From Solitalea lacus (GTDB lineage: Bacteria > Bacteroidota > Bacteroidia > Sphingobacteriales > Sphingobacteriaceae), in NCBI RefSeq assembly GCF_022014595.1, contig NZ_CP091740.1:1240001-1304000 (forward strand): a stretch of 64,000 bases of DNA. Reading direction: 5' to 3'. The notes under the pieces were generated by a model. That model saw only the letters and a list, made by a program, of their open reading frames with translations. It made no database searches and was not told the DNA's origin. Both the position numbers and the translations under genes were made by a program. Positions 8,741-24,979 of the stretch are shown here, in pieces; the first letter of the stretch is position 1; each line of letters starts with the position of its first letter.

Positions 8741-8801
8741 TACCTTTATCAATAAAGGGATTATTTAAACTTGCACTAGTTGAATGAGCAACGGTAAAGA
8801 A

Positions 8802-8838
8802 CTTCAACTTAATTAATAAGTAAAATTGAAAGGGACGC
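8802..8838 (+). repeat. Copy of the segment found at 5504-5537
   Basis: Contains the same CTTCAACTTAATTAA and AAGGGACGC blocks as the segment after the second TlpA-like gene, with slightly different spacing. The two copies flank the TlpA remnant, the membrane protein gene and the TonB receptor. Confidence 0.75.
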
Positions 8839-8862
8839 AGAATTATATTTTGAGTCCCTTTC
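8828..8862 (+). terminator. Hairpin after TonB receptor
   Basis: GAAAGGGAC (8828-8836) pairs perfectly with GTCCCTTTC (8854-8862). There is no clean T-run afterwards, so termination efficiency is uncertain, but the place, after the end of a transcription unit, fits. Confidence 0.65.
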
Positions 8863-9485
8863 GCTATTTAAGGCTAAACGGTTAAAAATGTTTTTTAATT
8901 AGTAGACTTCTGATTTTTTTTCTATTTCCCCAAAAAATATTATTTGGGCATAAATGAGCAGTCTGAAATTGATGGCAACTTTAGAAATATGATGTGCAAA
9001 TAAGGTTCTGTTTTTCTTAGTTTGATCTTGCTCCTCTGTGTGGTTATTACACCTTTAATTTTATTGTCCTATTCCGTGTTTTAATTCTCTGCCTTCTTTT
9101 TAAAATAATTTATAATGATTGATGTTTTGGATTTAATTAATTGATTGTTAGTTAATTGGGTGACAATTAAACGCAATTTTAGATTAACTTTTATTTAAAA
9201 AAAGGTTAAATAATCTATACGAATAGGCAAATAGTCCATTGTTTTTATTGTGAGTTAAAGTGATTTTGGGAATCCGTTTCAAAAACAAATTTGATTACGC
9301 AAATATTTGTTTTGGTGAGTAAAAATTTTGCCCCAAAGCCGATTTGTTGCCGTCAATAAAATAAAACCAAAATACGACAAAGAGAGAAAGGAGAATGGAT
9401 GTAGAGAAATTGACTCAAGTTTAATAATCTAAGGCCGTGTGTCAACCCCATACAAGGTAAGTTCATAAATCATTGCCTTTAAATC

Positions 9486-9505
9486 AACAATAAGGATTTA
9501 TTGTT
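9486..9505 (+). promoter_or_regulatory. Leader hairpin next to the SusC start
   Basis: AACAATAA, loop GGAT, TTATTGTT forms a perfect 8-bp AU-rich stem that ends 24 bases before the SusC ATG. It could affect ribosome access or be a regulatory element; its weak base composition makes chance possible. Confidence 0.35.
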
Positions 9506-9529
9506 TTAACTCAACCAATCCTAAATCTA

Positions 9530-12500
9530 ATGAAAAAGAGTTACGTAAAAGTTAACAGCATATATCATAGTTTAAAGATATTTAGAAGCAAGGGGCTTAT
9601 TGCTTTAGTAGTTGCAGCCTCTACACTTAATACAATGGCACAATCAGTGCCTAAGCAAGCCAGCCAAGAAAAAGCTTCCGTTTCTACTAAAAAAATTTTG
9701 GTGACCGGAACGATTACCGATGAGAATAACCTTCCATTGATAAGAGTTAGCGTTGCGGAATTAGGTACTAAAAATGGAGCTTTTACGAATGAAAAAGGTC
9801 ATTTCCATTTGAATGTGGAAGAAAATGCCGTTTTGCTGGTTACCTATCTGGGAATGGAATCACAGAAAGTGCGAATTGGTGGTAAAACTACATTCAACAT
9901 AGTAATGAAGGAAAGTAATACTGCTATTAAGGAAGTGGTTGTTACTGGTATTCCTTTTACTCGTAAAGTCGAGAGCTTTACAGGTGCCTATACAAAAATT
10001 ACCGCTCAGGAATTACAAAGCGCCGGAACGCAAAATATTTTTCAAGCGTTGAAAAATTTGGAGCCTGCATTAAATCTGATTGATAATAATATCAATGGCT
10101 CTGACCCTAATAAATTGCCTGAAATGCAGATCAGAGGATCTTCTTCATTCCCTGATTTGAAAGGAGAATATGCTACCAAGCCTAACCAGCCGCTGTTCAT
10201 TGTGGATGGTTTTGAGATGGCCTTAGAAAAAGTAGGGGACTTACCTTTGACCAGGATAGAGTCGGTTACTATTTTGAAAGATGCATCGGCTAAAGCATTA
10301 TATGGAGCCAGAGCAGCAAATGGCGTTATTGTTATTGAAACATTAAAAGCGAAGACTGGGGCATTAAGAATTAGTTATTCCGGAACGGTTGGTATTGAAG
10401 CTCCTGATTTAAGCAGCTATAATTTGACCAATGCAGCTGAAAAATTGGATCTGGAAAGGCGCTTAGGCGCTTATAACCAAAAACAGCCGGTTGTAGGTTT
10501 AGAATACGAAAGTTTGTATTATGCCAATTTAAAAGAGGTGCAAAGTGGGGTAAACACTGATTGGTTGGCTCAGCCATTGCAAACCGGAATGACCAACAGG
10601 CATATGATTAACATTGAAGGTGGCGAGGAACACTGGACTACCGGCTTTTCATTATTTTCCAATGGCACCCAAGGTGCAATGAAAGGCAGTGGAAGAAATA
10701 ATTTGGGAGGAGCCCTCAATGTATCTTATCGCAAAGACAAAATTTTATTCAGAAACCAATTATCGCTGAATAAAGCGAATTCGGAAAATTCTCCATATGG
10801 TACTTTCAGTGATTATGCTCAATTGAACCCCTACTGGAGACCTTACAATGATGATGGTAGTGTTCGTAAAGTATTAGGTGTTAACCCAACTTCCTATCAA
10901 TCCGTTGTTTATAATCCAATGTATAATGCTACCCTGAATTACCGTTCGACTTCAGAGTATACAGATATTACAAACAATATGCACCTTGAGTATGCTGTCA
11001 ACAATAATATCAAGGTTGTAGGTCGTGTTGGTTTTTCTAATACAGTTAATGGTTCCGATGTGTTCATTCCGGGAAGTAGTCTCAAATTTATGAGCTATGT
11101 CGGTGATAACTTATATAACAGAGGGTCATACGATAAAACAAATGGCAAGACATCAATGGTAAGCGGTGACTTGAATGCAAGTTATAACAACAGATGGGGA
11201 AAGCACTTGCTTTATGCCAACGTTGCTACCAATATCCGTGAGGATAAAAGTGAAAACTATGCATACTCTGCTACAGGTTTTCCGAACGACAAAATGGATA
11301 ACATCATCTTCGCCAAACAGTACGCCTCATACGCACTTAAGCCGACAGGAGGTGAGTCTCTTACACGAGAACTGGGTGCAATGGCTTTGATAAACTATTC
11401 GTTTGATGAAAGGTATGTTGCAGATCTTTCTCTTCGCTCCGGAACTTCTTCTCAATACGGCACTGATAACCGTTGGGGATTATTCTGGTCGGCAGGTGCC
11501 GGCTGGAACCTTCATAAAGAGAAATTTTTAAATGATAATAAGTACCTCAATTTATTGAAACTGAGAGGTTCAATAGGTAATACAGGTTCACAAAACTTCA
11601 ATGCTTACCAGGCAATGTCATTGTATAACTACTTTGTAGACAATTCTTATCAAGGAATGCTTGGCACTTATTTGAACAACCTTAATAACCCTGGATTAAA
11701 ATGGCAACAGCGCACGGACTATAACATTGGCATTGATGCTGAGATGATGAAGCGCTTGAGTCTCCGATTGGATATTTATAAAGGTGTGACAAATAACCTT
11801 CTGACAGATATTACTACACCTCCATCACTCGGTTTTCAAACTTATAAAGCAAATTTAGGACAGATCGTAAATAATGGATATGAGTTCAGAGTGAATTACA
11901 AAATGTTTGCAAATCCTGCAAAAAGACAATCGTTGAATGTTTTTGTAAGTGGAGCTGCCAACACTAACAAAATTACAAAGATATCCAATTCATTACAGGC
12001 CACCACAAACACGTTGGATAATCAATCTAGGACCAGTAACAAGCCTTTGACCAGATTCCAGGAAGGGCAGTCGCTTAACGCTATTTGGGCAGTGCGTTCA
12101 AACGGTATCGATCCGGCTACCGGAAAAGAAATTTTTGTAAAGCAAGATGGTTCGTTAACTGATACCTGGGATGTTAATGATAAGGTTGTTGTGGGTAATA
12201 ACCTGCCTAAAATGATTGGAACTACAGGTGCAAACTTTGCTTATAAAGGTTTCAATGTTGCAGTTACAGGTCGCTACAGAGTGGGCGGTCAAACCTATAA
12301 CCAAACGCTGGTAGACAAAGTAGAAAATGCATCATTAAGCAATAACGTTGATGCACGAGCTTATTATAACAGCTGGAAACAAGCTGGTGATAATGTGCTG
12401 TTCAGAAGTATAGGCACAACCAATACGACAACCCTTGCTACTTCACGCTTTGTACAAGATTTGAGTGAGTTCTCTATATCATCGGTTAATCTTGGCTATG

Positions 12501-12661
12501 ATTTTTATAGTTATTCGTTCATTAAAAAGATGAAGTTATCAGGATTGAGGGTAGCACTTAATCTGAACGATGTGTACCAATTCAGCACCGTAAAAGTAGA
12601 AAGAGGAACTGCTTATCCGTTTGCGCGTAACTGTTCATTAACTCTCAATGCTAGCTTTTAA
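9530..12661 (+). CDS. SusC/RagA family TonB-linked outer-membrane transporter
   Basis: 1043 residues. An extended N-terminus with signal peptide (to about residue 38, NTMAQ), a carboxypeptidase-regulatory-like domain (about 53-130), a TonB-box-like IKEVVVTGI, a plug with the family motif KDASAKALYGARAANG, and a long beta-barrel ending in F. It lacks an STN domain, so direct anti-sigma signalling through this protein is unlikely. With the SusD gene 33 bases downstream it should form a pedal-bin importer for oligomers. The downstream S46 peptidase and TlpA-like genes argue for peptides, as in RagAB of Porphyromonas, rather than glycans; this is inference. Confidence 0.95.
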   Translation: MKKSYVKVNSIYHSLKIFRSKGLIALVVAASTLNTMAQSVPKQASQEKASVSTKKILVTGTITDENNLPLIRVSVAELGTKNGAFTNEKGHFHLNVEENAVLLVTYLGMESQKVRIGGKTTFNIVMKESNTAIKEVVVTGIPFTRKVESFTGAYTKITAQELQSAGTQNIFQALKNLEPALNLIDNNINGSDPNKLPEMQIRGSSSFPDLKGEYATKPNQPLFIVDGFEMALEKVGDLPLTRIESVTILKDASAKALYGARAANGVIVIETLKAKTGALRISYSGTVGIEAPDLSSYNLTNAAEKLDLERRLGAYNQKQPVVGLEYESLYYANLKEVQSGVNTDWLAQPLQTGMTNRHMINIEGGEEHWTTGFSLFSNGTQGAMKGSGRNNLGGALNVSYRKDKILFRNQLSLNKANSENSPYGTFSDYAQLNPYWRPYNDDGSVRKVLGVNPTSYQSVVYNPMYNATLNYRSTSEYTDITNNMHLEYAVNNNIKVVGRVGFSNTVNGSDVFIPGSSLKFMSYVGDNLYNRGSYDKTNGKTSMVSGDLNASYNNRWGKHLLYANVATNIREDKSENYAYSATGFPNDKMDNIIFAKQYASYALKPTGGESLTRELGAMALINYSFDERYVADLSLRSGTSSQYGTDNRWGLFWSAGAGWNLHKEKFLNDNKYLNLLKLRGSIGNTGSQNFNAYQAMSLYNYFVDNSYQGMLGTYLNNLNNPGLKWQQRTDYNIGIDAEMMKRLSLRLDIYKGVTNNLLTDITTPPSLGFQTYKANLGQIVNNGYEFRVNYKMFANPAKRQSLNVFVSGAANTNKITKISNSLQATTNTLDNQSRTSNKPLTRFQEGQSLNAIWAVRSNGIDPATGKEIFVKQDGSLTDTWDVNDKVVVGNNLPKMIGTTGANFAYKGFNVAVTGRYRVGGQTYNQTLVDKVENASLSNNVDARAYYNSWKQAGDNVLFRSIGTTNTTTLATSRFVQDLSEFSISSVNLGYDFYSYSFIKKMKLSGLRVALNLNDVYQFSTVKVERGTAYPFARNCSLTLNASF

Positions 12662-12694
12662 TGGAACTTTTTTATCAACCAAAAAGAATTTGAA

Positions 12695-14152
12695 ATGAGA
12701 AATAGAATATTTGCAAGCTTACTGACTATTGGCACACTGCTTAGCACCACTTCTTGTGAAAAATGGATGGATGTTCAACCCGCTACACAAATTAAATCGG
12801 AAGTGTTATTGCAAGATGAGCAGGGGTATAAAGATGCATTGATCGGGTCTTACACTCTAATGAAGACACAACAGCTTTACGGCCGTGAACTCACTTTTGG
12901 TTTCATGGACGCAGCCATTCTACAATACGATCTTAACAGTAATACTACTTATAAGGATTTAAGTCAAAAGCCACTAACCTATACTTCTTCGGGTATTCGT
13001 TCAATAGTAGATAATGCATGGAAAGGGATGTATAATGTGATCGCTAACGTGAATAACATCTTAGATCATATTGATGCGGACAAAGCCAAATTCACAGGGA
13101 ATAATTATCAAATCATTAAAGGTGAGGCTTTGGCCATGAGGGCTTTCATTCATTTTGATCTGTTGCGTTTATTTGGATCAACTGATATGACTAAACCAGC
13201 TATTCCTTATGTTACTACGCTTAGTACTAATGTTACGCCACGTGCAACAGGAAATCAGGTGATGGAATCTGTTTTGAAAGACTTGAAAGATGCTTCTGAC
13301 AATTTAAGTGTAGATCCAATCAAAAACGGTTTGAAGCGTTCAGCTGATATGTTCCTTGATAATCGTCACCAACGCTTAAATTATTATGCAGTTAAGGCGA
13401 TAGCAGCCAGGGCTTACTTGTGGAAGAACGATAAAGTTAATGCTCTTGCAAACGCAATGGAGGTAATCAATATTGGCAACCAGACATTTCCTTGGATTCT
13501 AACATCAAACATAACCGCAATTAACGAAAGGGACAGGGATTACACGTTTTCAACTGAAAACCTTTTTGCACTGAATGTATTTGATTTGAAATCAACAGGA
13601 AATACCTGGTTCTACGCTGCATTTGCTTCAAATCAACTTCAAAAGTCGGGTGCAGCCGCCGGTACCTCTGGTTATACTCAAATGTTTGAAACCGCAAGTA
13701 TAGGAGCCAATGATATTCGTTTGTTGTACGTTACAAAGAAAGTAGGAACTACAACATATATCGTTAATAAATTTTATCAACCCGACAACTTTAACACAGC
13801 ATTTGCAGCAATGATGCCGCTTATTCGTCGCTCGGAGATGAACTACATCGCAGCTGAATGTAATGTGGGTGTTGATAATCAGGTGGCTATTAATTACCTG
13901 AATGAAGTAAGAGCTAATAGAGGCATTACAGCTGCACTTAGTTCTACATTAACCAGTGACCAGATTCAAACTGAAATTTTGAAAGAATACAGAAAGGAGT
14001 TTCAGGGAGAAGGTCAGCTATTTGCTTATTGTAAAAGAACTAAACAGACCGTTATTCCAGGGACTCCGTCAGGAGGATATCTTGGTACTCCAATAACAGA
14101 AGCTCAAATGATACTTCCTCTGCCTGACAGCGAAGTAGAATATGGCAGATAG
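12695..14152 (+). CDS. SusD/RagB family nutrient-binding lipoprotein
   Basis: 485 residues with a lipobox TTSC (Cys21), so a lipidated surface protein. The N-terminal part (EKWMDVQP) and the TPR-like helical core (for example GEALAMRAFIHFDLLRLFG) are characteristic of RagB/SusD, and the C-terminus has the usual YRKEFQGEGQ and ILPLPDSEVEYG segments. It forms the lid over the SusC barrel and binds substrate. It follows the transporter gene closely and is co-transcribed. Confidence 0.95.
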   Translation: MRNRIFASLLTIGTLLSTTSCEKWMDVQPATQIKSEVLLQDEQGYKDALIGSYTLMKTQQLYGRELTFGFMDAAILQYDLNSNTTYKDLSQKPLTYTSSGIRSIVDNAWKGMYNVIANVNNILDHIDADKAKFTGNNYQIIKGEALAMRAFIHFDLLRLFGSTDMTKPAIPYVTTLSTNVTPRATGNQVMESVLKDLKDASDNLSVDPIKNGLKRSADMFLDNRHQRLNYYAVKAIAARAYLWKNDKVNALANAMEVINIGNQTFPWILTSNITAINERDRDYTFSTENLFALNVFDLKSTGNTWFYAAFASNQLQKSGAAAGTSGYTQMFETASIGANDIRLLYVTKKVGTTTYIVNKFYQPDNFNTAFAAMMPLIRRSEMNYIAAECNVGVDNQVAINYLNEVRANRGITAALSSTLTSDQIQTEILKEYRKEFQGEGQLFAYCKRTKQTVIPGTPSGGYLGTPITEAQMILPLPDSEVEYGR

Positions 14153-14195
14153 CGAGGATTAATTCATATTGTAAAACCTAAAAAAAATTATATAA

Positions 14196-14939
14196 ATGAA
14201 AGCAATAGTTAAAGCATGTTCTTTAGTTCTTTCATTGGGCTTTCTTTTAAGTGCCTGTTCTGAAAAGGATATTCCAGGCTATGAGAATGATCCCAGAATG
14301 TTTTTTCAAATCCCGGGAAGTGGGAACATTGCCGTGCGCGATTCTCTTATGTATTCTTTCCCGGCGCATCCAAAAGTAATTGAGGCAGATACCCTTTGGT
14401 TTAATGCCTGTATCATGGGTAATGCGACCCCTTATGATCGTGAAATTGGAATTAAGATCAATACTGAAAAAACAACTGCAGTTGAAGGAGTGAATTTTAA
14501 AATCGCAAGCAAAGTATTGCCTGCTAACGCTTTTAAAGTACGCATCCCAATTGTGATCTATAAAACAGGATTAAAAGATAAATCTGTGCGTCTTCAATTA
14601 GAAGTGCAGGATAGTAAGGATTTCAAAATAGGCTATAATCGTTATAACAAAGCCATTTTTATCTGGGGTGATAAGTACTTAAAACCAGATATCTGGGACA
14701 TTTCAAATTATAAAAATGCATTTGGTACATTTTCAGAAACCAAGTACGCTTTTATTTTGAATGCATGCGGCATAACAGACCTTCCTGATCAGGCGGATAT
14801 AGTAATGTTGGGTTATTACAATGCCGCGGTGAGAAAGGCAATAAGCGAATATAATGCCTCACATGCTATTCCATTAAAAGATGAATTTGGAATGGATATA
14901 ATAATTGGTCCTTGGTCTGGCGTTGGTGGTGTAGGTTAA
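14196..14939 (+). CDS. DUF4843-type lipoprotein
   Basis: 247 residues with lipobox LSAC (Cys21). The order FQIPGSGN..DSLMYSFPAHP, a beta-sandwich-like middle with EGVNFKI, and a C-terminal IWGDKYLKPDIW segment match the DUF4843 proteins that commonly follow SusD genes in Sphingobacteria and Bacteroidia. The role is unknown; surface-exposed accessory binding to the SusCD complex is a reasonable guess. Placed 43 bases after SusD. Confidence 0.85.
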   Translation: MKAIVKACSLVLSLGFLLSACSEKDIPGYENDPRMFFQIPGSGNIAVRDSLMYSFPAHPKVIEADTLWFNACIMGNATPYDREIGIKINTEKTTAVEGVNFKIASKVLPANAFKVRIPIVIYKTGLKDKSVRLQLEVQDSKDFKIGYNRYNKAIFIWGDKYLKPDIWDISNYKNAFGTFSETKYAFILNACGITDLPDQADIVMLGYYNAAVRKAISEYNASHAIPLKDEFGMDIIIGPWSGVGGVG

Positions 14940-14989
14940 CAGTTATTGTAAAGTAGGCCAAAAGTTATTTTTTATTAAACTGAAATTAG

Positions 14990-16543
14990 ATGAAAAGAAA
15001 ATATTGTTTCGCAGCTTTAATGTCCCTTTCGTTATTCTGGGTAGGATGCGCCAAAGATGAGGGTAATTATATTTATAAGGATGTAAGCACAAATTTTGTT
15101 GATGCAACAGGTATGCCTGACGTGTATATTGCTAAACAAAATGATGTGGTAAACATCAGTCTTTCTAAGGTAGAGGGAAGTTCGAACGATTTAACGTACG
15201 AATGGAAATTGGTGACGCAGAGTTATACTGCGGATCCTTTTACGGGGATCTTTGTTAACAAACAACTGGCTACCACAAAGGATCTTTCTTTTAAGGTAGA
15301 AGATGCTCCCGGAGATTACTATTTGATGTTGTATGTAAAGGATAATGCAAACGGAGGAGTGGCTCAGATCATTAAAAAACCGTTTACCATCAGGTCCTAT
15401 GCTTCGCCAGGCTTAATGGTTTTACATGGAGATAACAGTCAAAGTGATATAAGTATCCTGGTTAATAGTAAATTATATACCCAGTATTCAGGTGCTGACT
15501 ATGTTCAAGCAAACGTTTTTTCCGAAATCAATGGTAAGAAAATAGCGGGTGTGGGTGCAGGAATAACACATATGACCCAAAACTGGGTAGATGTATTCAC
15601 TAACAATAGTAATGGTGGATTTCGTTTAAATCAGAACGACTTGCGCATCATGAATACTTATAGCGATATGTTCGTTGTGCCTATGGCATCTGGTGACGTA
15701 CAATTTCAGGCCTATGACCGCTGGAGTTATAACGAGTTGTTGGTTAATAAGGGTGATCTTTATTTTATTTCTCAGCCGACACCTAACATTTTCAACAAAT
15801 TTGGCGTGAAATGCTTCGGCCAGGATTATGTAGCGGCTCCTTTTATCGGTGCTGTGGGTGGGTCTGGAGCAGGTTATAATTTCAGTTATTTCGGAGCGTT
15901 TTATGATGCAAAGAACAGGCGCTTCCTTTACGTTGATAATAACAAAGACGTTAAAACATTTCTTGCTCCAGGTGCAGCAGCGAAATTTGACATGAGAAAT
16001 GTTGGCAAGGATATGGTATATGCTGAAATGGGCTATGGTAGTAACGGCCCGAGATGGTATTGCGTAATGCAGAGTCCGAATAATCCGGCCACTAGACAAT
16101 TATACGTATGTCAATTTAACGTAATGGACGATGGGAATAGAGGAGTTGATCTAATCGATATCAGTGCTGCTAATGGTTTGAGCAATTCGAAATACTTTGC
16201 CTTTGGAAGCAAGGGGAACGTAATGTACCATGCTACTGATACCAAAATATACCTAAACAACTATGCTGGTTCAAAGTCATCAACAGAGCTTTACGATGTT
16301 TCAACTTCTTATGCTGGAAGTGTAATTACCGGAATGAAGTTGTTTAAACCACCGGTATCAATTCCTGTTCATCCTAACGACGGCAAAATCTTGTATGTAA
16401 CGCTTTACAATCCTACAACAAATGCAGGTACCGTTTTACAAATCGACGTGAATGAAGCAAATGGTGCTTTTGTTGGATCTGGAGCTGTAAAAGCATATAC
16501 AGGTTTCGGCAAAATTTCAGCGATTAGCTACAAGGCAAAATAA
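14990..16543 (+). CDS. PKD-like surface lipoprotein of a SusCD locus
   Basis: 517 residues with lipobox VGC (Cys20) followed by AKDEGNYIYKD, the usual start of PKD-like family lipoproteins found after DUF4843 genes. An Ig/PKD-like domain (about 40-130) precedes a larger beta-rich domain (about 140-510) with repeated strand-and-turn units, possibly a propeller. Probably a substrate-binding partner on the cell surface. The unit SusC-SusD-DUF4843-PKD ends at a strong hairpin 18 bases downstream. Confidence 0.8.
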   Translation: MKRKYCFAALMSLSLFWVGCAKDEGNYIYKDVSTNFVDATGMPDVYIAKQNDVVNISLSKVEGSSNDLTYEWKLVTQSYTADPFTGIFVNKQLATTKDLSFKVEDAPGDYYLMLYVKDNANGGVAQIIKKPFTIRSYASPGLMVLHGDNSQSDISILVNSKLYTQYSGADYVQANVFSEINGKKIAGVGAGITHMTQNWVDVFTNNSNGGFRLNQNDLRIMNTYSDMFVVPMASGDVQFQAYDRWSYNELLVNKGDLYFISQPTPNIFNKFGVKCFGQDYVAAPFIGAVGGSGAGYNFSYFGAFYDAKNRRFLYVDNNKDVKTFLAPGAAAKFDMRNVGKDMVYAEMGYGSNGPRWYCVMQSPNNPATRQLYVCQFNVMDDGNRGVDLIDISAANGLSNSKYFAFGSKGNVMYHATDTKIYLNNYAGSKSSTELYDVSTSYAGSVITGMKLFKPPVSIPVHPNDGKILYVTLYNPTTNAGTVLQIDVNEANGAFVGSGAVKAYTGFGKISAISYKAK

Positions 16544-16560
16544 TAACCCCTAATAACAAT

Positions 16561-16603
16561 AAAAAGGAATTCATCGGCATATCAGTCTGATGAATTCCTT
16601 TTT
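16561..16603 (+). terminator. Strong bidirectional-type hairpin inside the uptake locus
   Basis: AAAAAGGAATTCATC (16561-16575) pairs perfectly over 15 bp with GATGAATTCCTTTTT (16589-16603), with a T-run in the right arm. It separates the four outer-membrane genes from the redox/peptidase genes. An in-frame ATG at 16590 lies within the right arm and is not the start of the next gene. Confidence 0.85.
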
Positions 16604-16637
16604 AAATACTATCAATTATACCAAGGAAGTTAAGGAA

Positions 16638-17789
16638 ATGAGTATGAATAGACTAAAGTGGGCGATTGTTTTGGGAGGTTCACTTTTACAGTTGCAAGGT
16701 TTTGCTGGTATATATCCTGCTGTGGTGAATGGTAACATCAGTTGCTTGGAGAAAGAATCAAAAATAGTTGAGCAATATAATTACCCTAAGCCTAAAACCT
16801 TACAGGAAATGTCAGACCTGTTATCGAATGGTATAAAATCACTTACAAAAACTATTTATTTTGATGTGTCTGCTATGAATATGACAGACAATCAACTAAA
16901 AATCACTGTTCTAAATGCATATTATGATGCATTGAATAAGGATAATTCTTTAAAATATGCTTATAAGGTTGTGCCAACTCGTAAAAAAGGTACAAAGATC
17001 TTCGTGTGTGAGATTAAATATATGCCTTATAAGCTGGGTATCAACCCGAAAACAGTGCCGGCAGGTGCTAAAAAAATCAATAGCTATAACGATATCATAA
17101 CTGCAACATTAAACTCTCCATTGGGGAAGAATATTCCAATTGCTATAACCAACAAAGATCTTGATTTTACTACCCTGCAGCTTGTATTAGGATCTAATAG
17201 TGGATATGGTTATTTGGTTTATATGTTTAATGCTGACGGAACATCCATTACCTGTGCTCCTGCCCCAAAAGGTTTACCGGGTGCGCCAACAAGCATAAGC
17301 GACTGCATATCAAAGATCAATACTGTTAAAGATTCAGTTACTGCAATTTTGACTCGTATTATAACTCCCGATATGACCAATGATCAAAAATTGACTACGA
17401 TTTACAATTATGTAACACGAACTTCATACGATTTTAATTTTAATACTCCCAAGTTGCCTTTTGATTCACAAACGGCTTATGGTGTTTTTGTAAATAGAAA
17501 GGCTGTCTGCGGTGGATATTCATGGGCTTTTAATTTGTTGGCAAATGCGGCAGGAATTCAATGCTATAATGTGGGAGGTAAGGGAGATAATGTTACCCAT
17601 GCCTGGAGTTTGGCCAACTATAACGGCGGGTATTATTACTTTGATAGTACTTGGGACCGTGGCTTAAACCAGCACCCCTACAAATATTTCGGTCAAACCG
17701 AATCTTATTTCCAATCAAAAAGACATGTTTGGAACAACACAATGATCAATGCTTTGGTGGCTGAGAAGCAACAAGGTGTTAATCAGTAG
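16638..17789 (+). CDS. Secreted transglutaminase-fold protein
   Basis: I chose ATG 16638 (or 16644), preceded by a purine-rich AAGGAA, over the ATG at 16590 that sits in the terminator hairpin. A signal peptide (LKWAIVLGG..QGFAG) leads to an uncharacterised N-terminal region and a transglutaminase-like core with all three catalytic positions: Cys in AVCGGYSWAF, His in THAWSL, Asp in YYFDSTWD. Such bacterial proteins are often cysteine peptidases or crosslinkers rather than classical transglutaminases. Its place between SusCD and the S46 peptidase suggests processing of peptide substrate (inference). Spacing to the hairpin leaves only 34 bases, so it depends on read-through or a very compact promoter. 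Confidence 0.85.
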   Translation: MSMNRLKWAIVLGGSLLQLQGFAGIYPAVVNGNISCLEKESKIVEQYNYPKPKTLQEMSDLLSNGIKSLTKTIYFDVSAMNMTDNQLKITVLNAYYDALNKDNSLKYAYKVVPTRKKGTKIFVCEIKYMPYKLGINPKTVPAGAKKINSYNDIITATLNSPLGKNIPIAITNKDLDFTTLQLVLGSNSGYGYLVYMFNADGTSITCAPAPKGLPGAPTSISDCISKINTVKDSVTAILTRIITPDMTNDQKLTTIYNYVTRTSYDFNFNTPKLPFDSQTAYGVFVNRKAVCGGYSWAFNLLANAAGIQCYNVGGKGDNVTHAWSLANYNGGYYYFDSTWDRGLNQHPYKYFGQTESYFQSKRHVWNNTMINALVAEKQQGVNQ

Positions 17790-17849
17790 AATATAAGAAT
17801 TCTTATTACGGTTTATACTCATCACTTTTAACCTTTAACAATAAATAGT

Positions 17850-18974
17850 ATGAAAACGAATAAACTAAAGTGTTACTTCACAACACTTGGTATTTCCCTT
17901 TTGAGTTTGCAAGGTTTTGCACAAAGCAAAGATTGCATAGTTAGTGGAAAGATCAATGGAATAGATAAAGCATCAAAAATAACTGTTGGTCGTGACCATG
18001 GCGATCATGGGGGGCGAGAAATCTTAAAGCAATCTACAATAGATGCTAACGGAAATTTCTCCATTACGCTTCCTTCTCAATTAGCTAATGAAGTATATGA
18101 TTTGCAAATTGAAGGGATTCGAATGGGTGTTAATTTCGTGGCTGAAAAAGGTCACATTGAAATTACTGGCAATAAAAACAAACTTTACGCTTGTGAAGTG
18201 AAGGGAACTCCTCAAAACGAACATTGGAATAACTTCCAGAAGTTTTCCCTGGCACAAACCATGAAGGGAAATCAGGTGATGATGAATAGCCAGCAATATT
18301 CTAAGGAAGAAAGAGCTGCTTTTTTCAAGAAAGCAGAATCCGAAAAAAAGGCCTATACAGATTCGTTGATCAAGAATTATCCGAATTCAATTGTTTCATT
18401 GTACCTGGCTAAGGTTCCTTTAATGATGATGAAATATGATCAGATTGATGCTGTTCTAAAAAACTTTACCCCCTACTTTTCTAAGCACCCATATTATCTT
18501 GCAATGAAGCACCGTGCTGATATAATCCGTAAGACGGCTCCAGGTGCAATCGCCCCTGATTTTACTGTATTACAACCGGATGGTAAGTCAAAAATTAAGC
18601 TTTCATCTTTCCGCGGAAAGTATGTAATGCTTGACTTTTGGGCGTCTTGGTGTGTGCCTTGTCGTGCGGAAAACGTGCATACGAAAGAAATTTATGAAAA
18701 ATACCATTCTATGGGTTTAGAGGTGATTTCATTTTCATTAGATCATGAATTGGACAAATGGAAGAGTGCATTGGAGAAAGATGGTTTGGTATGGCACAAT
18801 GCATCTGACTTGGTGGGTGGTATAAAGTCACCAGTTGCAAAAGAATATGGTATTGATGGCATTCCTGCCATTTGGATTATTGATCCAAATGGAAAAATTA
18901 TCGCTGAAGGAGTAAGAGGCGAAGCGTTAAATAAAGTGTTGGAATCAATCTTTGCTCAAAAAACTAAAGGATAA
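17850..18974 (+). CDS. TlpA-like thioredoxin-fold protein with DUF4369 N-terminus
   Basis: 374 residues: signal peptide to about residue 24 (QGFAQ), DUF4369-like domain with a His/Asp/Gly-rich loop (GRDHGDHGG), helical middle, thioredoxin domain with WCVPC (Cys268, Cys271) and cis-Pro motif GIPAIW. Likely envelope disulfide reductase. The dipeptide between the cysteines is V-P, not the usual G-P of the region 2 copies, which may change redox potential. Ends 40 bases before a terminator, so it closes the transglutaminase-TlpA unit. Confidence 0.9.
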   Translation: MKTNKLKCYFTTLGISLLSLQGFAQSKDCIVSGKINGIDKASKITVGRDHGDHGGREILKQSTIDANGNFSITLPSQLANEVYDLQIEGIRMGVNFVAEKGHIEITGNKNKLYACEVKGTPQNEHWNNFQKFSLAQTMKGNQVMMNSQQYSKEERAAFFKKAESEKKAYTDSLIKNYPNSIVSLYLAKVPLMMMKYDQIDAVLKNFTPYFSKHPYYLAMKHRADIIRKTAPGAIAPDFTVLQPDGKSKIKLSSFRGKYVMLDFWASWCVPCRAENVHTKEIYEKYHSMGLEVISFSLDHELDKWKSALEKDGLVWHNASDLVGGIKSPVAKEYGIDGIPAIWIIDPNGKIIAEGVRGEALNKVLESIFAQKTKG

Positions 18975-19014
18975 TCATTCGATTTTGCCTTAGACAAAAA
19001 ACAACATTTTGTCG

Positions 19015-19053
19015 AGTTGAGTCCCGAGGTGCTCCAAGGGACTCAACTTTTTT
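19015..19053 (+). terminator. Rho-independent terminator before the S46 peptidase
   Basis: AGTTGAGTCCC pairs with GGGACTCAACT (19015-19025 with 19038-19048) over 11 bp and is followed by a T-run. It rules out the in-frame TTG at 19017 as the peptidase start. Confidence 0.9.
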
Positions 19054-19082
19054 CCTTTTTTAAACCATTCAATAGTATAAAA

Positions 19083-21239
19083 ATGTATAAGAGAACCATT
19101 TCCAAATGGTCATTGCTGATAGCTTTTTTATTGTCGTTCACTGCTCAGGTACGTGCAGATGAAGGGATGTGGCTATTGGCCTTGTTAAAAAAGAATAATG
19201 CTGAGGAGATGAAAGCAATGGGACTAAACATTCCCCTTGAAAAAATTACCGGTGAAGACGGTTCATTGAGTGAATCGGTAATTGGATTTGGTTCGGGATG
19301 TACCGGCTCTATCATTTCAGGTTCAGGCTTAATTCTTACAAATTACCACTGTTCTTACGGTGCTATTCAGCAGTATGTTTCTCCAACAAACGATATTTTC
19401 CAAAATGGTTTTTGGGCCAATACTGCTGAGCAGGAACTTCCTATTCATGATTTAACAGTTACCATCAATAAAAAGATTTTAAATATTTCTGAAGAGGTAA
19501 AGGCTCAGTTGCAAAATGGAACTCCCGGCTCTAATAACATTCAAAGCGCAATAGATGCTATTTCGAAAAAATATCAGCAAAAGTATCCTAAATATAAGGT
19601 CCTAATCAAGCCATATAAGAACAACAGTCTATTTGTTCTTTTTCTTCAACTGCAATACAAAGACGTACGTTTTGTAGGTGTAGCACCTAAAAATGTAGCC
19701 AAGTTCGGAGGTGAAACTGATAACTGGATGTGGCCTCGCCACAGCGCTGATTTTGCTTTCTTTAGGGTATATGCAGATAAAAATGGAGCGCCTACGGCTT
19801 ATTCAAAAAGCAATGTACCATTGGCGGTTAAAAACTATCTGCATATAGCAAAGAAGGGATATAAGAAAGGTGACTTTGCTATGTCAATGGGTTATCCTGC
19901 TATGTCCGACCGAAACGCTTCTTCATCAGAAATTTGGGATAAAACCCATGTGGTTAATTCGGCAATGATAGCGGCCCGTAAACTTCGTCAATCCATCCTG
20001 GAAGCTGAAATGAACAAAAGTCCGCTTGTTAAACAATTATATGCTGAAAAATATGCCACCTCGGCCAACTATTATAAGAATGCCGTAGGCATGAACTTTT
20101 GGGTAGATAAGTTAAATATCATTTCCCGAAAAGAAAATTATGAAAAGGAGTGGATGAAATGGGCCTTTCAAGATGAAAGCAAGAAAAACGCTTATGTCAC
20201 TTTATTGCAGGATCTGAAAAAAGGAACAGAAGCAAATGCGCAGTATAAAAAGGCGCTTAATTATTATGTCGAAGGCTTCGGCTCATGCGAAATGATTCAA
20301 TTTCTTTCAGCTTTTGCGAAATCATATACAAGCTATGTAGAGAATTTGAAAACCAAACCAACTCTTCAAAACGACCTTTCGAACACAGCCAGAGGATATT
20401 ATAAAAATTTCAATGCAGATGTCGACAAGAAGGTGACCAAGGCGATGCTTAAACTAATGGCAGATAGTATCCCTGAGCAATTATTGCCCGATATTTTTGC
20501 TATAAGAAACCTTCATTCTCAAGCAGCGATTGATCAATATGTTGACGACCTGTTCCAAAATTCAGTTTTTGCGGATGCTGACAGACTTCAAAATTGGTTA
20601 AAGAACCCATCCGTGCCGATTGAAAATGACCCTGCGATTTTATTAAACGAATCGATTGAGAATAAGCGTAGAGAAATTTTCAAAATAAACTCTACTAATT
20701 CAAACAAGCTAAACAGATACGCTTCTATCTACTCAAATAGCCTTGATGATTTTAGAGGAGGTCGCTATTATCCGGATGCCGATAGAACTATTCGTCTTTC
20801 GTACGGAACTGTTACAGACCTTCAGGTGGACGGTAAGACAATCCCTTATCAAACCATGTTCAGTGGGTTGATTGCCAAAGCTGCCGATACAACAATTAAA
20901 GATTATTATTTGAATAAAAAATTGAAGTCCATTTGGCAAAACAAAGACTTTGACCCTTACGCGATAAATGATGATATGCCTGTTTGTTTTGTAACCAATG
21001 GTGATGTAACGGGCGGAAATTCGGGCAGTCCGATGATGAATGCCAATGGGGAAATTATCGGCCTGGTATTCGACTGTAACTGGGAATCGATGACAAGGGA
21101 GTTCAATTTCGAAAAAGAACTTCACAAAGTAATCTGCGTAGACATTCGTTATTTACTGTTTATTACAGAGAAGTTTTCTGGTTCAAATAGAATCATAGCT
21201 GAAATTGAGAAGACTAATCAGTATAGCAACTTAAATTAA
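19083..21239 (+). CDS. S46 family dipeptidyl peptidase (DPP7/DPP11-like)
   Basis: 718 residues from ATG 19083; a further upstream TTG lies in a terminator. Signal peptide to about residue 25, then the family start ADEGMW. The chymotrypsin-like triad is recognisable: His89 in LTNYHC, the Asp region in FGGETDNWMWPRHSADF, and Ser647 in GGNSGSP. S46 enzymes remove dipeptides from the N-terminus of oligopeptides in the periplasm. The residue that sets P1 preference in P. gingivalis DPP11 (Arg673, 18 residues after Ser655) is Cys665 here, in the place that is Gly in DPP7. TNYHC replaces the more usual TNHHC, keeping the catalytic His. Located between TlpA-like genes of an uptake locus. Confidence 0.95.
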   Translation: MYKRTISKWSLLIAFLLSFTAQVRADEGMWLLALLKKNNAEEMKAMGLNIPLEKITGEDGSLSESVIGFGSGCTGSIISGSGLILTNYHCSYGAIQQYVSPTNDIFQNGFWANTAEQELPIHDLTVTINKKILNISEEVKAQLQNGTPGSNNIQSAIDAISKKYQQKYPKYKVLIKPYKNNSLFVLFLQLQYKDVRFVGVAPKNVAKFGGETDNWMWPRHSADFAFFRVYADKNGAPTAYSKSNVPLAVKNYLHIAKKGYKKGDFAMSMGYPAMSDRNASSSEIWDKTHVVNSAMIAARKLRQSILEAEMNKSPLVKQLYAEKYATSANYYKNAVGMNFWVDKLNIISRKENYEKEWMKWAFQDESKKNAYVTLLQDLKKGTEANAQYKKALNYYVEGFGSCEMIQFLSAFAKSYTSYVENLKTKPTLQNDLSNTARGYYKNFNADVDKKVTKAMLKLMADSIPEQLLPDIFAIRNLHSQAAIDQYVDDLFQNSVFADADRLQNWLKNPSVPIENDPAILLNESIENKRREIFKINSTNSNKLNRYASIYSNSLDDFRGGRYYPDADRTIRLSYGTVTDLQVDGKTIPYQTMFSGLIAKAADTTIKDYYLNKKLKSIWQNKDFDPYAINDDMPVCFVTNGDVTGGNSGSPMMNANGEIIGLVFDCNWESMTREFNFEKELHKVICVDIRYLLFITEKFSGSNRIIAEIEKTNQYSNLN

Positions 21240-21247
21240 TCAATAAA

Positions 21248-21291
21248 GATAGGGCTGTCATTTCAGTGTGAACAGCCCCATCAATTTTTTT
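21248..21291 (+). terminator. Terminator after the S46 peptidase
   Basis: GGGCTGT (21252-21258) pairs with ACAGCCC (21272-21278), extended by GAT/ATC, and is followed by TTTTTTT. It separates the peptidase from the last two TlpA-like genes, leaving only about 16 bases before the next start. Confidence 0.8.
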
Positions 21292-21307
21292 AGTTTGAAT
21301 TTTAACA

Positions 21308-22663
21308 ATGAAGAAGATATTAAGACAAGTTGCCATCATTTCATTTGGGGTGATGTTTACAATCCAAGCTTACGCTGGAGACGGCATCAAAACTATAGTG
21401 AAAGGTTCGGTTCAAGGCTCAGAAATTAAATCGGTCCTGATGTCGAGACGCGATGGGATGCGTGAAACTAAGATCACTGATTCCATCGAATCCGACGGCC
21501 AATTTCAGTTGTCAATGAATCTAAAGCAGCCTGGGTTTTACGTGTTGTCAACCAATTCGACCAACTTGGACGCAGTGGAAATGTACTTAAGGCCGGGGGA
21601 TCAAATTTCAATCAATATGGAAAAAGATCAGGTGGTAATGAGCGGTAAGGGAAGTGGGTTAAATCAGTTTCTATATAAAATTCAAAAATCGATGCCCTAC
21701 CAAGGCTCGGTTGCCAGTTTCACCCAAACTTATAATGACCGAGTAAAGGCCATTCACAATTCAAGTGATGAAGAGGTTATTCGCAACAAAGCGATCTTAT
21801 TGGGCAATGAACAAGGGAAATATCTGGATAAGGTATTTGGTCCGGTAATCGAATACAAAGCGCATGGTGGTACTCCGGATATGATGGAGGTGAATTTTGC
21901 CGATCTGAACATACGCTTGGTTCCTGAAATTACAATTCATCCTAACTGGAACCAAACTGTCACTGAGCTGATGTTTGCCAAAATGAGAGCCGGTCAGTTG
22001 AAAGTACGCAGCATCAATACCTGGATAGCAGATTTTGGAAATGCCGTTGATCATCCAAAATTGAGGGAAGAGTTTATCCTTGCCCTGATCAATTATTCTG
22101 CTTCGAATGGAGACCTCGCTCTCAATAAAGAATTGAAAGAAGCTTTGCCTTTGATTAAGGACCCAAAAAACATTGCCCGATTAAACGCAATGAAAGGCAA
22201 ACTTGCCATGAACCTGAATAATTACAAATCTGCTCCGACGGGTACTGATATGAGTGCTTACGCTTTTCATGATTTAAATGGCAAACAAGTTTCAATCAGC
22301 GATTATAAAGGCAAAATTATCTATATCGATATTTGGAATACTGGATGTAGGCCATGCATTGCAGAAATGCCTTTCTTAAAGAAAATGGAGCATGAAATGC
22401 ATGGTAAGGACATTGCTTTCCTTTCTGTTTCTTGCGACTATAATACAGAGGTTTGGAAAAACTTTTTGCAGAAGAGAAATCAGACCGATGAGCATCAACT
22501 TATCATGGGTAAAAAAGATCCATTCTTTGAAAAAATCGGCAGATCAGGAATTCCACGATTTGTGATTTTGGACAAAAATGGCAAAATGGTCAACAATAAC
22601 TGTTGCAAGCGCCCGTCTAACCCATTACTGAAAGTTTACCTTACTGAATTATTAAATCAATAA
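21308..22663 (+). CDS. TlpA-like thioredoxin-fold protein with atypical CRPC active site
   Basis: 451 residues: signal peptide to about residue 22 (IQAYAG), DUF4369-like N-terminal beta domain, a longer helical middle than the 370-residue paralogues, and a thioredoxin domain with GCRPC (Cys347, Cys350) in place of WCGPC: the Trp is replaced by Gly and the first dipeptide residue is Arg. Two extra cysteines (NNCCKRP) lie near the C-terminus. Cis-Pro motif GIPRFV is kept. Likely an envelope oxidoreductase with different partner preference. It is followed after three bases by another TlpA-like gene. Confidence 0.9.
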   Translation: MKKILRQVAIISFGVMFTIQAYAGDGIKTIVKGSVQGSEIKSVLMSRRDGMRETKITDSIESDGQFQLSMNLKQPGFYVLSTNSTNLDAVEMYLRPGDQISINMEKDQVVMSGKGSGLNQFLYKIQKSMPYQGSVASFTQTYNDRVKAIHNSSDEEVIRNKAILLGNEQGKYLDKVFGPVIEYKAHGGTPDMMEVNFADLNIRLVPEITIHPNWNQTVTELMFAKMRAGQLKVRSINTWIADFGNAVDHPKLREEFILALINYSASNGDLALNKELKEALPLIKDPKNIARLNAMKGKLAMNLNNYKSAPTGTDMSAYAFHDLNGKQVSISDYKGKIIYIDIWNTGCRPCIAEMPFLKKMEHEMHGKDIAFLSVSCDYNTEVWKNFLQKRNQTDEHQLIMGKKDPFFEKIGRSGIPRFVILDKNGKMVNNNCCKRPSNPLLKVYLTELLNQ

Positions 22664-22666
22664 ACA

Positions 22667-24028
22667 ATGAATAAATATTGTGCATTTTTTGCCTTCCTTT
22701 TGAGTGCTGTTTTTTCTGCGAATGCTCAATACACAGAAATTAACGGGGTGTCAAAAACCGCCAAGCCGAATGATGTTAGGCTATTTAAGGTGGTTATGGG
22801 CCGTATTGAAGAAATCGCGAAAACAATGCCTAATTCCGCGGGCAAATTCAACTTAAAGTTTCAACCTGAGTACAAAGGATATTATGCTATTGGCTTTGGG
22901 GATAAATATGAAATTCTGGATAAATACAAGATTTACGCAAAAGGTGATGATAAGATCAATCTTGAGTTGAATGACTCTGCCTATGTGCTCACCGGGAATA
23001 ATTCCAAGGAGAACCAGGTATTGTACCAATGGTATAAGTTAGCATACAAGGTTGAACGCAGATCGGTTTATTTTAATCGTGGTGGAAGAAGGATGCAAGG
23101 GTTCTTCCCTGAATTACAAAGCCTGGTTGAAAAATCACAAAATTGGATGGATGGAAAAGAAACAGGCAATGCCAATTTTGATCAGTTAATGAAAAGCACC
23201 ATAAATCATGATTTGGCTTATTTTACCATGGCCTATTTGATTTCTCCACGTGCATCAAAGCCAAATCCGAATGACTATACTGCTTTTGTGAAAAGCTTTA
23301 ACGCCGATAGCTATTTGCAAAATGAAGAGCTGTTAAAATTTCCTTACGGCACCACGTTGTTGAGATGTCTGGTAGCGTTTAAGAGTCAAGACTATTACAA
23401 TAGCAATTGGGAAAAGCTGTTGCCTGGAATTTCAAACGATGTTTTGAAAGGCGAATTTGTGTTAAGCAAGATGGCTGCTGTTAAATCGTATACCAATTAC
23501 CAAGAGCTATACGATGCCTATAACAAGTATTTTCTTGCTGATGATCAAAAAGAGCGTGTAAAGAAAATTGAAGCAGGATTGCAGAAATATAAGCCAGGCA
23601 CAGTAGCTATTAATTTTACTGGCTGGGATGCCTCAGGTAAAGAAATTTCACTTTCAGATTTCAAGGGTAAAATTGTATTGGTAGATGTTTGGGCAACCTG
23701 GTGCGGTCCATGTAATAAGGAAATTCCTTACTTGAAAAAAGTAGAGGAGGAGTTTCATGGGAAAGATGTCGTGTTTATAGGTGTTTCGGTAGATGAGCAG
23801 AAAGACAAAGAGAAATGGAAGAAATTCCTAGTCGATAATCAGATGGAAGGCGTTCAGCTATTCGCCGGTGGCTGGCATCAATCAACAATTGCTAAGGCCT
23901 ATGGCATCAACGGTATTCCTAGATTCATGCTGTTTGATAGAAACGGTAATATCATCAATGTTGATGCGCCGCGTCCAAGCGACCCGAAATTGAAAGCAAC
24001 TTTATTAGACTTGTTGAATAAATCGTAA
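22667..24028 (+). CDS. TlpA-like thioredoxin-fold protein
   Basis: 453 residues: signal peptide to about residue 20 (SANAQ), a diverged DUF4369-like domain, helical middle and a thioredoxin domain with the standard WCGPC (Cys346, Cys349) and GIPRFM. Its C-terminal half closely follows the protein before it (FHGKDVVFIGVSVD against MHGKDIAFLSVSCD; RPSDPKLK against RPSNPLLK), so the two are tandem duplicates that have taken on different active sites. Ends the locus before a bidirectional terminator. Confidence 0.92.
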   Translation: MNKYCAFFAFLLSAVFSANAQYTEINGVSKTAKPNDVRLFKVVMGRIEEIAKTMPNSAGKFNLKFQPEYKGYYAIGFGDKYEILDKYKIYAKGDDKINLELNDSAYVLTGNNSKENQVLYQWYKLAYKVERRSVYFNRGGRRMQGFFPELQSLVEKSQNWMDGKETGNANFDQLMKSTINHDLAYFTMAYLISPRASKPNPNDYTAFVKSFNADSYLQNEELLKFPYGTTLLRCLVAFKSQDYYNSNWEKLLPGISNDVLKGEFVLSKMAAVKSYTNYQELYDAYNKYFLADDQKERVKKIEAGLQKYKPGTVAINFTGWDASGKEISLSDFKGKIVLVDVWATWCGPCNKEIPYLKKVEEEFHGKDVVFIGVSVDEQKDKEKWKKFLVDNQMEGVQLFAGGWHQSTIAKAYGINGIPRFMLFDRNGNIINVDAPRPSDPKLKATLLDLLNKS

Positions 24029-24048: not shown

Positions 24049-24084
24049 AAAAAGGCGAATCGTTTAATATGATTCGCCTTTTTT
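24049..24084. terminator. Bidirectional terminator between convergent genes
   Basis: AAAAAGGCGAATC (24049-24061) and GATTCGCCTTTTT (24071-24083) form a perfect 13-bp stem with A-run and T-run on either side, serving the TlpA-like gene on the plus strand and the deacetylase on the minus strand. Confidence 0.92.
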
Positions 24085-24091
24085 CATTCTA

Positions 24092-24979
24092 TTAATGAAA
24101 GCTGTTATTCATTGTCTTATTTAAGGTATTGGCACTCCAGTAACCGCTTGCAATGATGCGGCGAATGGTAAATAATGGATCTTCCTGATCTTTTTTATCA
24201 GCAAGGCTGAAAGCAGCTTTAAAACCTCTTTGTTTTAACTCCGGGAAAGCTTGTTTGTTCCACAATCCAAATGGATAAGCGAAATAATCAATCTTTTTAC
24301 CAGTAATGCTTTCAAGTGTTTTAGTCGGTTTTTCAATTTGAGTTACCCAGTCTTGTCCTTGGTATTTCTTAACGTTATGATGGTCCCAGGTATGACTCCC
24401 AATCACGTTGCCTTCGTCTGATAGTTTTTTTATCTGGTCTTTGCTCATGTATTTAGGACGGCCAATAGATACTGTCATGATAAAATAAACTCCTTTATAT
24501 CCATATTTTTTTAGTTCTTCATTGGCAACTAAAAATTGATTTTCTTCAGTATCGTCAAAAGTTAACATTACGGGTTTTGTAGGAAGCGGATCTCCGTAAA
24601 CTAAATAGTTATAAACCTGATCAGGTAGAACAGTATGATAACCGCTATCTGCAAGCATTTTCATATGAGCTTTAAACGTGCTTACTGGAATAATATAATC
24701 CTTTGCCGCTTTTGAATCTGATGCCTTCCAATCTCTGATTTGGTGATAACAAAGAATAGGGACTTCTTTTTTAGCTAAAATTTCTGCAACAGACGCCTCT
24801 TTTCTATTTGCTGCATTTTCTGTTGCTGCATTTGCAGTAGTCGAATCAATCGGTTTTTCGGTTACATGGCCTGAATTTTGGGTTGACTTCTCTTCTTCTG
24901 ATTTACCACTTTGTTGACAAGAAACCGAAGACACCAGCATTCCAGCCAGTAATGTATATTTTAAATAATTTTTAAACAT
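24092..24979 (-). CDS. Polysaccharide deacetylase family lipoprotein
   Basis: 295 residues with lipobox SVSC (Cys21), a Ser/Glu/Ala-rich linker, and a NodB-homology domain of the PgaB-like type: VPILCYHQI start, metal and base aspartates in LTFDDTEEN, metal histidines in SHTWDHHN, and FAYPFG. Motif 1 usually reads TFDDG; here Gly is Thr. Such enzymes remove acetyl groups from N-acetylglucosamine polymers or xylan-type polymers in the envelope. Substrate unknown. Monocistronic by context, with a long AT-rich upstream region. Confidence 0.87.
   Translation of the reverse strand: MFKNYLKYTLLAGMLVSSVSCQQSGKSEEEKSTQNSGHVTEKPIDSTTANAATENAANRKEASVAEILAKKEVPILCYHQIRDWKASDSKAAKDYIIPVSTFKAHMKMLADSGYHTVLPDQVYNYLVYGDPLPTKPVMLTFDDTEENQFLVANEELKKYGYKGVYFIMTVSIGRPKYMSKDQIKKLSDEGNVIGSHTWDHHNVKKYQGQDWVTQIEKPTKTLESITGKKIDYFAYPFGLWNKQAFPELKQRGFKAAFSLADKKDQEDPLFTIRRIIASGYWSANTLNKTMNNSFH

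Follow-up and report, generated by a model that had tools for sequence, protein, structure and literature searches.

A conserved SusCD gene cluster of Solitalea lacus with TlpA-like proteins and a cysteine-type S46 peptidase: a candidate peptide uptake and processing operon

Results and discussion

Nine closely spaced genes on the forward strand of the Solitalea lacus genome unite a SusC/SusD transporter pair with three TlpA-like proteins and a dipeptidyl peptidase of family S46. They occupy positions 9530-24028 of the window, by which we mean the whole stretch of 64,000 nucleotides that was analysed (bases 1240001-1304000 of the single-contig, 4.4 Mb genome). We read the set as a candidate SusCD-type operon for the uptake and processing of peptides, and put the probability of this reading at roughly 0.55. 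The order, taken from the open reading frame list and a profile search, is SusC, SusD, DUF4843, PKD_2, transglutaminase-fold protein, TlpA-like 1, S46, TlpA-like 2 and TlpA-like 3. An earlier interpretation made from the letters alone (the sequence-only reading) had proposed this order and these families, and it was borne out, with the families scoring above curated cut-offs and the genes lying at the positions it gave.

Conservation of gene order

The order SusC-SusD-DUF4843-PKD_2-TlpA-S46-TlpA is kept at 11 loci in 10 genomes of the Sphingobacteriales and Chitinophagales, in agreement with the earlier proposal of one conserved unit. The loci come from two sources. A protein search of public species genomes with the S46 product was followed for the best 80 of 593 relatives; the four closest (two Pinibacter, Pedobacter nyackensis and Sphingobacterium lumbrici; 48-64% identity) all have the conserved layout, and the remaining 76 are 33-38% identical. 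A motif scan for the cysteine variant of S46 in 400 genomes of the order found 9 sites in 8 genomes, that of S. lacus included, and every one of them sits within the conserved arrangement. Two loci, those of Pedobacter nyackensis and Sphingobacterium lumbrici, came up in both searches and were counted once. A phylum-wide scan for the cysteine motif (5 of 395 genomes) was too strict, with the leucine codon fixed as CTN, and is not used as a denominator. Since the same order is found at ten other loci, the nine-gene arrangement is not due to chance.

Membership varies within this frame. The transglutaminase-fold gene is present at 6 of the 11 loci and absent from 5. Both Pinibacter loci and that of Sphingobacterium lack TlpA-like 3 and have one other TlpA-like gene following S46; TlpA-like 2 is shortened at one further locus (L111). 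Identity to the window proteins falls as low as 38% for PKD_2 and 48% for S46. In L112, from another genome of the same genus (G169), TlpA-like 1 and TlpA-like 3 match their window counterparts at 85-86% identity, against 51% for SusD and 40% for PKD_2, a mosaic that suggests exchange of the surface part. One genome (G033; L108 and L109) carries two diverged copies of the operon.

The S46 peptidase and its S1 pocket

The most distinctive feature of the locus, and one that the sequence-only reading had passed over, is a cysteine lining the S1 pocket of S46. The S46 gene (19083..21239, + strand) matches Peptidase_S46 (PF10459) with 615.6 bits against a cut-off of 22; the listed start, a TTG at 19017, is probably too early, and the ATG at 19083 is likelier. 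In an alignment of 113 S46 sequences the catalytic His, both Asp of the aligned motif and Ser655 are kept in every member, which places the window protein within the family. Numbering follows the window protein, counted from its FDxNWE motif, which was set to residues 671-676 of SmDPP7. Position 673 in DPP11/SmDPP7 numbering, which is residue 687 of the 740-residue open reading frame and is encoded by a TGT codon at 21075..21077 (+ strand), is Gly in 73 sequences, Arg in 29 and Cys in 11. The window enzyme thus lacks the Gly at 673 (666 in PgDPP7) that marks DPP7 (S46.001), and reaches 557 bits against the 1200 of the NCBIfam Dpp7 equivalog; nor is it a DPP11 (S46.002), which has Arg or the Shewanella-type Ser at this position, all 11 loci having Cys. 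In six of the 11 the cysteine is there by selection, the loci having been found through the cysteine motif, and their SusCD linkage was not selected; the window and the four protein-search loci were not selected for Cys.

The substitution does not stand by itself. All 11 cysteine-type enzymes also have Val650, Val670, Arg680, Glu681, Phe682 and Val691, and the other 102 share none of these residues, save one with Phe682; they have Ile, Asn, Gln or Thr at 650, Ala, Gly or Asn at 670, Gly, Ser or Asn at 680, Asp at 681, and Cys, Ala, Thr, Ser or Met at 691. In a 41-sequence tree the 11 fall on one side of a branch with a Shimodaira-Hasegawa-like approximate likelihood ratio (SH-aLRT) support of 100 and a stem of 1.53 changes per column, as estimated by a quick method that flagged long branches. 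Every one of the 11 lies in a gene run with SusC/SusD and TlpA. None of the other 102 lies in a SusC/SusD run, and three of them have SusC elsewhere in the fetched region (at least 5 kb was fetched on both sides for 69 of the 102). The sequence-only reading would have been refuted by TlpA and S46 genes scattered elsewhere in relatives; for the cysteine type this is not what was seen. S. lacus itself has two further S46 genes, one of the Gly and one of the Arg type, neither of them near SusCD. A class-wide scan for FDxNWE matched 178 of 295 genomes; among the matches listed, which need not be S46 and did not include the S. lacus cysteine site, no Cys codon was seen by eye, and Gly and Arg codons predominated.

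A third group of S46 enzymes reportedly exists in Bacteroides; the 102 sequences set against the cysteine type here are of the Gly and Arg types. According to the portions of PMC8041751 used here, the S1 subsite of SmDPP7 includes residues 650, 670, 673, 680, 681 and 691, with 673 crucial for the P1 preference, and the portions of a review, PMC8048996, give Gly at 673 in DPP7, Arg in DPP11 and Ser in the Shewanella type; a cysteine there is not named in those portions of either account. By its pocket residues, the cysteine-type enzyme probably has a P1 preference unlike that of DPP7 and DPP11. Because Cys is close in size to Ser673 of the Shewanella-type DPP11, we suggest by analogy, and with low confidence, that a polar or acidic P1 residue may be preferred.

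TlpA-like proteins in SusCD loci

The three TlpA-like proteins, all on the + strand, carry the motifs WASWCVPC (TlpA-like 1, 17850..18974), WNTGCRPC (TlpA-like 2, 21308..22663) and WATWCGPC (TlpA-like 3, 22667..24028). AhpC-TSA and Redoxin domains were found in all three and DUF4369 in two. Across the 11 loci, each of the 30 TlpA-like proteins keeps the CXXC motif, as do 51 of 53 in a wider set, so that the proteins belong to the TlpA/ResA type as redoxin domains with CXXC; they do not reach the named families, the best scores being 78.6 of 230 bits for TlpA (NF047696) and 78.2 of 170 bits for ResA (NF002854). TlpA-like 3 matches solved putative thiol-disulfide oxidoreductases, the best being 2lja. 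The S. lacus genome encodes one DsbD_TM protein, which could supply the electrons. The secreted transglutaminase-fold protein (16590..17789, + strand; PF01841 Transglut_core, 32.6 bits against 23) has the catalytic Cys, His and Asp of its superfamily invariant in 6 of 6 aligned sequences, and two further conserved cysteines. Its predicted model, with a predicted local distance difference test score (pLDDT) of 49.5, is too poor for use, and since the gene occurs at only 6 of the 11 loci the protein cannot be central to the system.

The sequence-only reading had held that dedicated disulfide reduction within a SusCD locus is not standard for peptide systems. On the contrary, the association is common in this lineage. 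In S. lacus a TlpA-like gene is present in 11 of 40 SusC runs, including all five PKD_2 loci, and 12 of 17 DUF4369 domains lie within 10 kb of a SusC gene; 20,000 circular shifts gave 3.1 on average, and 12 was reached in 0.14% of them. A search with TlpA-like 3 in 61 genomes of the order found 57 places in 20 genomes, from which 33 regions, three of them in S. lacus, were hand-picked to cover different places and labelled by BLAST comparison with the window proteins and with Pfam-checked representatives. The TlpA homologue stands in a run with SusC, SusD, DUF4843 or PKD_2 in 28 of the 33, a recognised peptidase is present in 23, and both are found in 22. The peptidases belong to unrelated families: aspartyl (PF13650), trypsin-like (PF13365), subtilase (PF00082) and DUF4953 met-zincin (PF16313). 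Immediately upstream in S. lacus, the sister loci L084 and L085 follow the same plan, with ECF (extracytoplasmic function) sigma, FecR, SusC, SusD, DUF4843, PKD_2 and TlpA genes and then a peptidase, which is of the DPP IV-type S9 kind (after a 633-base gap) in one and an aspartyl protease in the other.

A comparison of accessory genes in S. lacus points towards the same link with peptidases, and we give it little weight. The 24 accessory genes of SusC runs with TlpA include two met-zincins and one each of DPP IV, trypsin-like and aspartyl protease, and the 98 of runs without TlpA include two GH3 proteins, a fucosidase, a GH35/GH43 protein and two C39 peptidase domains. These counts rest on 25 of 33 and 25 of 139 families respectively; the 24 include two regulator genes of a neighbouring locus and one gene swapped for an uncut copy, and 7 of 105 genes of the TlpA-less runs were left out as cut by the region end.

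 An aspartyl protease and a thioredoxin_7-type protein after TlpA recur in many SusCD runs, and in L121, L123 and L124 this pair is followed by a protein of 501 residues and then one of 789-790 residues, which in L121 are of the GDPD/GH16 and the phospholipase C-like kind, respectively. In genome G045 (L145:11615-14413) a lantibiotic dehydratase-like gene lies about 620 bases after a run of DUF4843, PKD_2, met-zincin and TlpA.

Transporter and surface lipoproteins

The SusC/RagA outer-membrane TonB-dependent transporter (1043 residues; 9530..12661, + strand) scores 574 bits against the TIGR04056 cut-off of 368 and has Plug and CarbopepD_reg_2 domains. The SusD/RagB surface lipoprotein, or lid, adjoins it (12695..14152, + strand; PF14322 and PF07980 above cut-off), and together the two constitute a SusCD transporter. 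Next come the DUF4843 lipoprotein (14196..14939, + strand; PF16132, 111.8 bits) and the PKD_2 lipoprotein (14990..16543, + strand; PF16407). The lipobox Cys21 is kept at 11 of 11 loci in both SusD and DUF4843. PKD_2 consists of an N-terminal part and a beta-propeller (residues ~139-517). Its predicted model (pLDDT 80.7) is closest to BtuG-type B12 lipoproteins (8blw_B, VIA-align Z 25.8, 3.3 A over 302 residues, 14% identity), and its best Foldseek match is 9s6c (BtuK1). Since unrelated propellers follow at Z 21.9, the modelled fold indicates a propeller lipoprotein rather than a B12 protein specifically. A sequence search of solved structures yielded no useful match for PKD_2 and none at all for DUF4843. 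A supposed match of DUF4843 and PKD_2 to the extra lipoproteins Bt2261-62 found no support, no such chain being among the sequence or fold matches listed, which does not exclude it.

Transcription unit and regulation

Gaps within the set range from 3 to about 110 bases, compared with 789 bases 5' of the SusC gene, and a terminator-like hairpin of 15 pairs (24049..24083, + strand) follows the last gene. A terminator scan of the region gave 12 sites against 11.0 expected by shuffling, which is chance level, so the hairpin draws its weight from its strength and place rather than from the count; promoter-like sites in the region were not above the shuffled expectation (42 against 50.5). We infer that the nine genes form one transcription unit.

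At 7 of the 9 loci for which upstream DNA was read (the Pinibacter loci are not among them), SusC is closely preceded by an ECF sigma/FecR pair. The pair is missing in the window (8741-9700) and in the same-genus genome G041. The window SusC also lacks an N-terminal STN domain, and among six other SusC proteins scanned, STN is present in L180, L006, L084 and L183 and absent from L184 (G041); L186 has no STN at threshold although the sigma/FecR pair is present. The pair and STN are thus lost together in the window and in G041, its nearest relative, though the match is imperfect, and both loci appear to have been uncoupled from sigma/anti-sigma control.

Proposed function

SusCD loci are commonly interpreted as serving glycan use. 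Among the nine proteins, a Pfam scan found no glycan enzyme or carbohydrate-active family, as the earlier interpretation had said, so the set does not qualify as a polysaccharide utilisation locus. A polysaccharide deacetylase gene (24092-24979, - strand) and an alpha-galactosidase gene (25241-26464), shortly 3' of the operon, lie outside the unit, and none of the flanks fetched for the other ten loci holds a relative of either. With peptidases as recurrent partners of SusCD and TlpA, the peptidic cargo proposed by the sequence-only reading is the likeliest, and gene context makes us fairly confident of it.

In the mechanism that we propose, SusD, DUF4843 and the PKD_2 propeller lipoprotein would capture oligopeptides at the cell surface, and SusC would import them into the periplasm in a TonB-driven step. 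The TlpA-like proteins of the periplasm, recharged by DsbD of the inner membrane, would open disulfide bonds, either in the imported peptides or in the enzymes acting on them. S46 would then clip N-terminal dipeptides, with its P1 preference set by the Cys- and Arg-bearing S1 pocket. The dipeptides would finally be taken up by general transporters encoded elsewhere. The places assigned to these products in the cell are putative. Whether the TlpA-like proteins reduce the cargo itself is, in our judgement, an even question, and the disulfide-bonded or cysteine-rich cargo of the sequence-only reading is conjectural.

A bolder and rather doubtful extension is that the cysteine-type enzymes constitute a third S46 class, with a redox-sensitive Cys and an Arg in S1, confined to SusCD/TlpA operons in which reduction and cleavage are coupled, and that SusCD-propeller-TlpA-peptidase loci are a general protein-scavenging counterpart of polysaccharide utilisation loci. 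In that case S46 might take Cys, or a residue exposed only upon reduction, at P1, or the thiol might switch the pocket.

Several observations weigh against the proposed function. The TlpA-like proteins may act on other periplasmic thiols rather than on the cargo. RagA, a clear relative of the window SusC (174 bits), comes second among its solved relatives, the best being another SusC homologue (8aa4); depositors describe some of the top solved SusD matches as binders of sugar or carbohydrate; and the PKD_2 fold resembles a B12-capture protein. No recognised peptidase was found in 6 of the 28 SusCD-type TlpA runs, 5 of the 33 TlpA regions are not SusCD-type runs, and in the runs of 5 of the 102 other S46 genes a TlpA-like gene is present and SusCD is not. 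The TlpA run of L121 continues into genes that do not encode peptidases, one for a GDPD/GH16 protein and one for a protein like phospholipase C, with similar genes in L123 and L124.

The TlpA-like proteins might instead keep the operon's own cysteines reduced, for example the catalytic Cys of the transglutaminase-fold protein or the S1 Cys of S46. Single periplasmic cysteines are prone to oxidation, and the first of these enzymes has its invariant catalytic Cys and two more conserved ones, the second its conserved extra Cys. Yet TlpA genes are kept at the five loci that lack the transglutaminase gene, and none of the 28 SusCD-type runs has a gene labelled transglutaminase-fold or S46. Nor do the outer-membrane parts offer a conserved pair to reduce: outside the CXXC motifs and lipoboxes, cysteines conserved in at least 80% of loci number none in SusC (9 compared) and one each in SusD, DUF4843 and PKD_2, a scarcity that speaks against the TlpA-like proteins serving these parts. 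Protection of the operon's own enzymes thus seems unlikely as the explanation.

Capture of a cofactor or metal carrier, corrinoid-like or a peptidic iron binder, by the propeller lipoprotein would agree with the lead of BtuG-type proteins over the first unrelated propellers and with the upstream sigma/FecR pairs, since iron uptake systems typically have such pairs as well; further upstream in the window (6551-8740) is a TonB receptor whose matches to siderophore/PqqU-type proteins are weak. Against such a cargo, the recurrent partner is a peptidase, from several unrelated families, and Pfam identified no cofactor enzyme among the nine proteins. Propellers, moreover, are widely alike: 952 of 971 aligned chains, preselected by Foldseek, reach Z 8 or more against the PKD_2 model. 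We consider a cofactor or metal cargo distinctly improbable. That S46 and TlpA merely neighbour SusCD with no joint function could draw on the patchy occurrence of the locus (8 of 400 genomes by exact motif, S. lacus included), but the order is shared across two taxonomic orders, the window's flanking genes are not found at the other loci, and in the compared set the S46 clade is linked exclusively to SusCD. The low identities reported above for PKD_2 and S46 also argue against a single very recent transfer of all copies, and we regard a loose neighbourhood as highly improbable.

Genomic surroundings

About 58 kb of the genome (~1206000-1264000, spanning L084, L085 and window positions 1-24028) is rich in SusCD, DUF4843, PKD_2, TlpA and peptidase genes. 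Two adjacent TlpA-like DUF4369 genes lie at window positions 3278-5499. A very large protein, encoded from L085:15103 to window position 2289 and scanned as two separate halves, has sortilin/BNR repeats, F5/8, Ig and MBG domains and a CHU_C type IX secretion signal; a PorP/SprF gene (2308-3207) follows it.

Comparison with known systems

If the reading as a peptide operon holds, peptide systems of environmental Bacteroidota could be recognised from sequence by the recurrent SusC-SusD-DUF4843-propeller-TlpA-peptidase layout. The S46 clade, through its new S1 pocket, would likewise offer a single-residue test of P1 specificity, at the residue that already separates DPP7 from DPP11.

In BtuG/BtuK systems, as in the window, a beta-propeller lipoprotein stands beside a TonB-dependent transporter, a pairing reflected in structure entry titles; PKD_2 differs in its extra N-terminal part, its low identity and its SusD neighbour, and the likeness is one of fold only. 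Polysaccharide utilisation loci share the SusC/SusD pair and, in relatives of the window, the upstream ECF sigma/FecR genes, whereas here a peptidase and reductases stand in place of carbohydrate-active enzymes. The DUF4369-redoxin proteins of the TlpA/ResA type in Bacteroidota have the same C-terminal redoxin domain with CXXC; those of the window have a long N-terminal part, occur in several copies per nutrient-uptake operon and score below the named-family cut-offs.

The SusC/SusD pair is common to the window, RagAB of Porphyromonas gingivalis and Bt2261-64 of Bacteroides thetaiotaomicron, and oligopeptide ligands are reported for the latter two (PMC7782687). The window pair differs in belonging to a unit with DUF4843, a PKD_2 propeller, TlpA-like proteins and S46. 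In P. gingivalis, dipeptidyl peptidases are thought to act on RagAB-imported peptides (PMC8048996). DPP7 and DPP11 have the same full-length S46 domain and catalytic His, Asp and Ser as the window enzyme, which is set apart by Cys673 and its SusCD run; the 102 compared Gly and Arg enzymes have no such run. Among the matches listed in a literature search of open-licence papers for SusCD or SusD with TlpA, DUF4843, DUF4369 or S46, no such locus was described. Each gene family, and peptide import by SusCD, was already known; what appears to be new is their conserved union with TlpA reductases and a distinct S46 clade.

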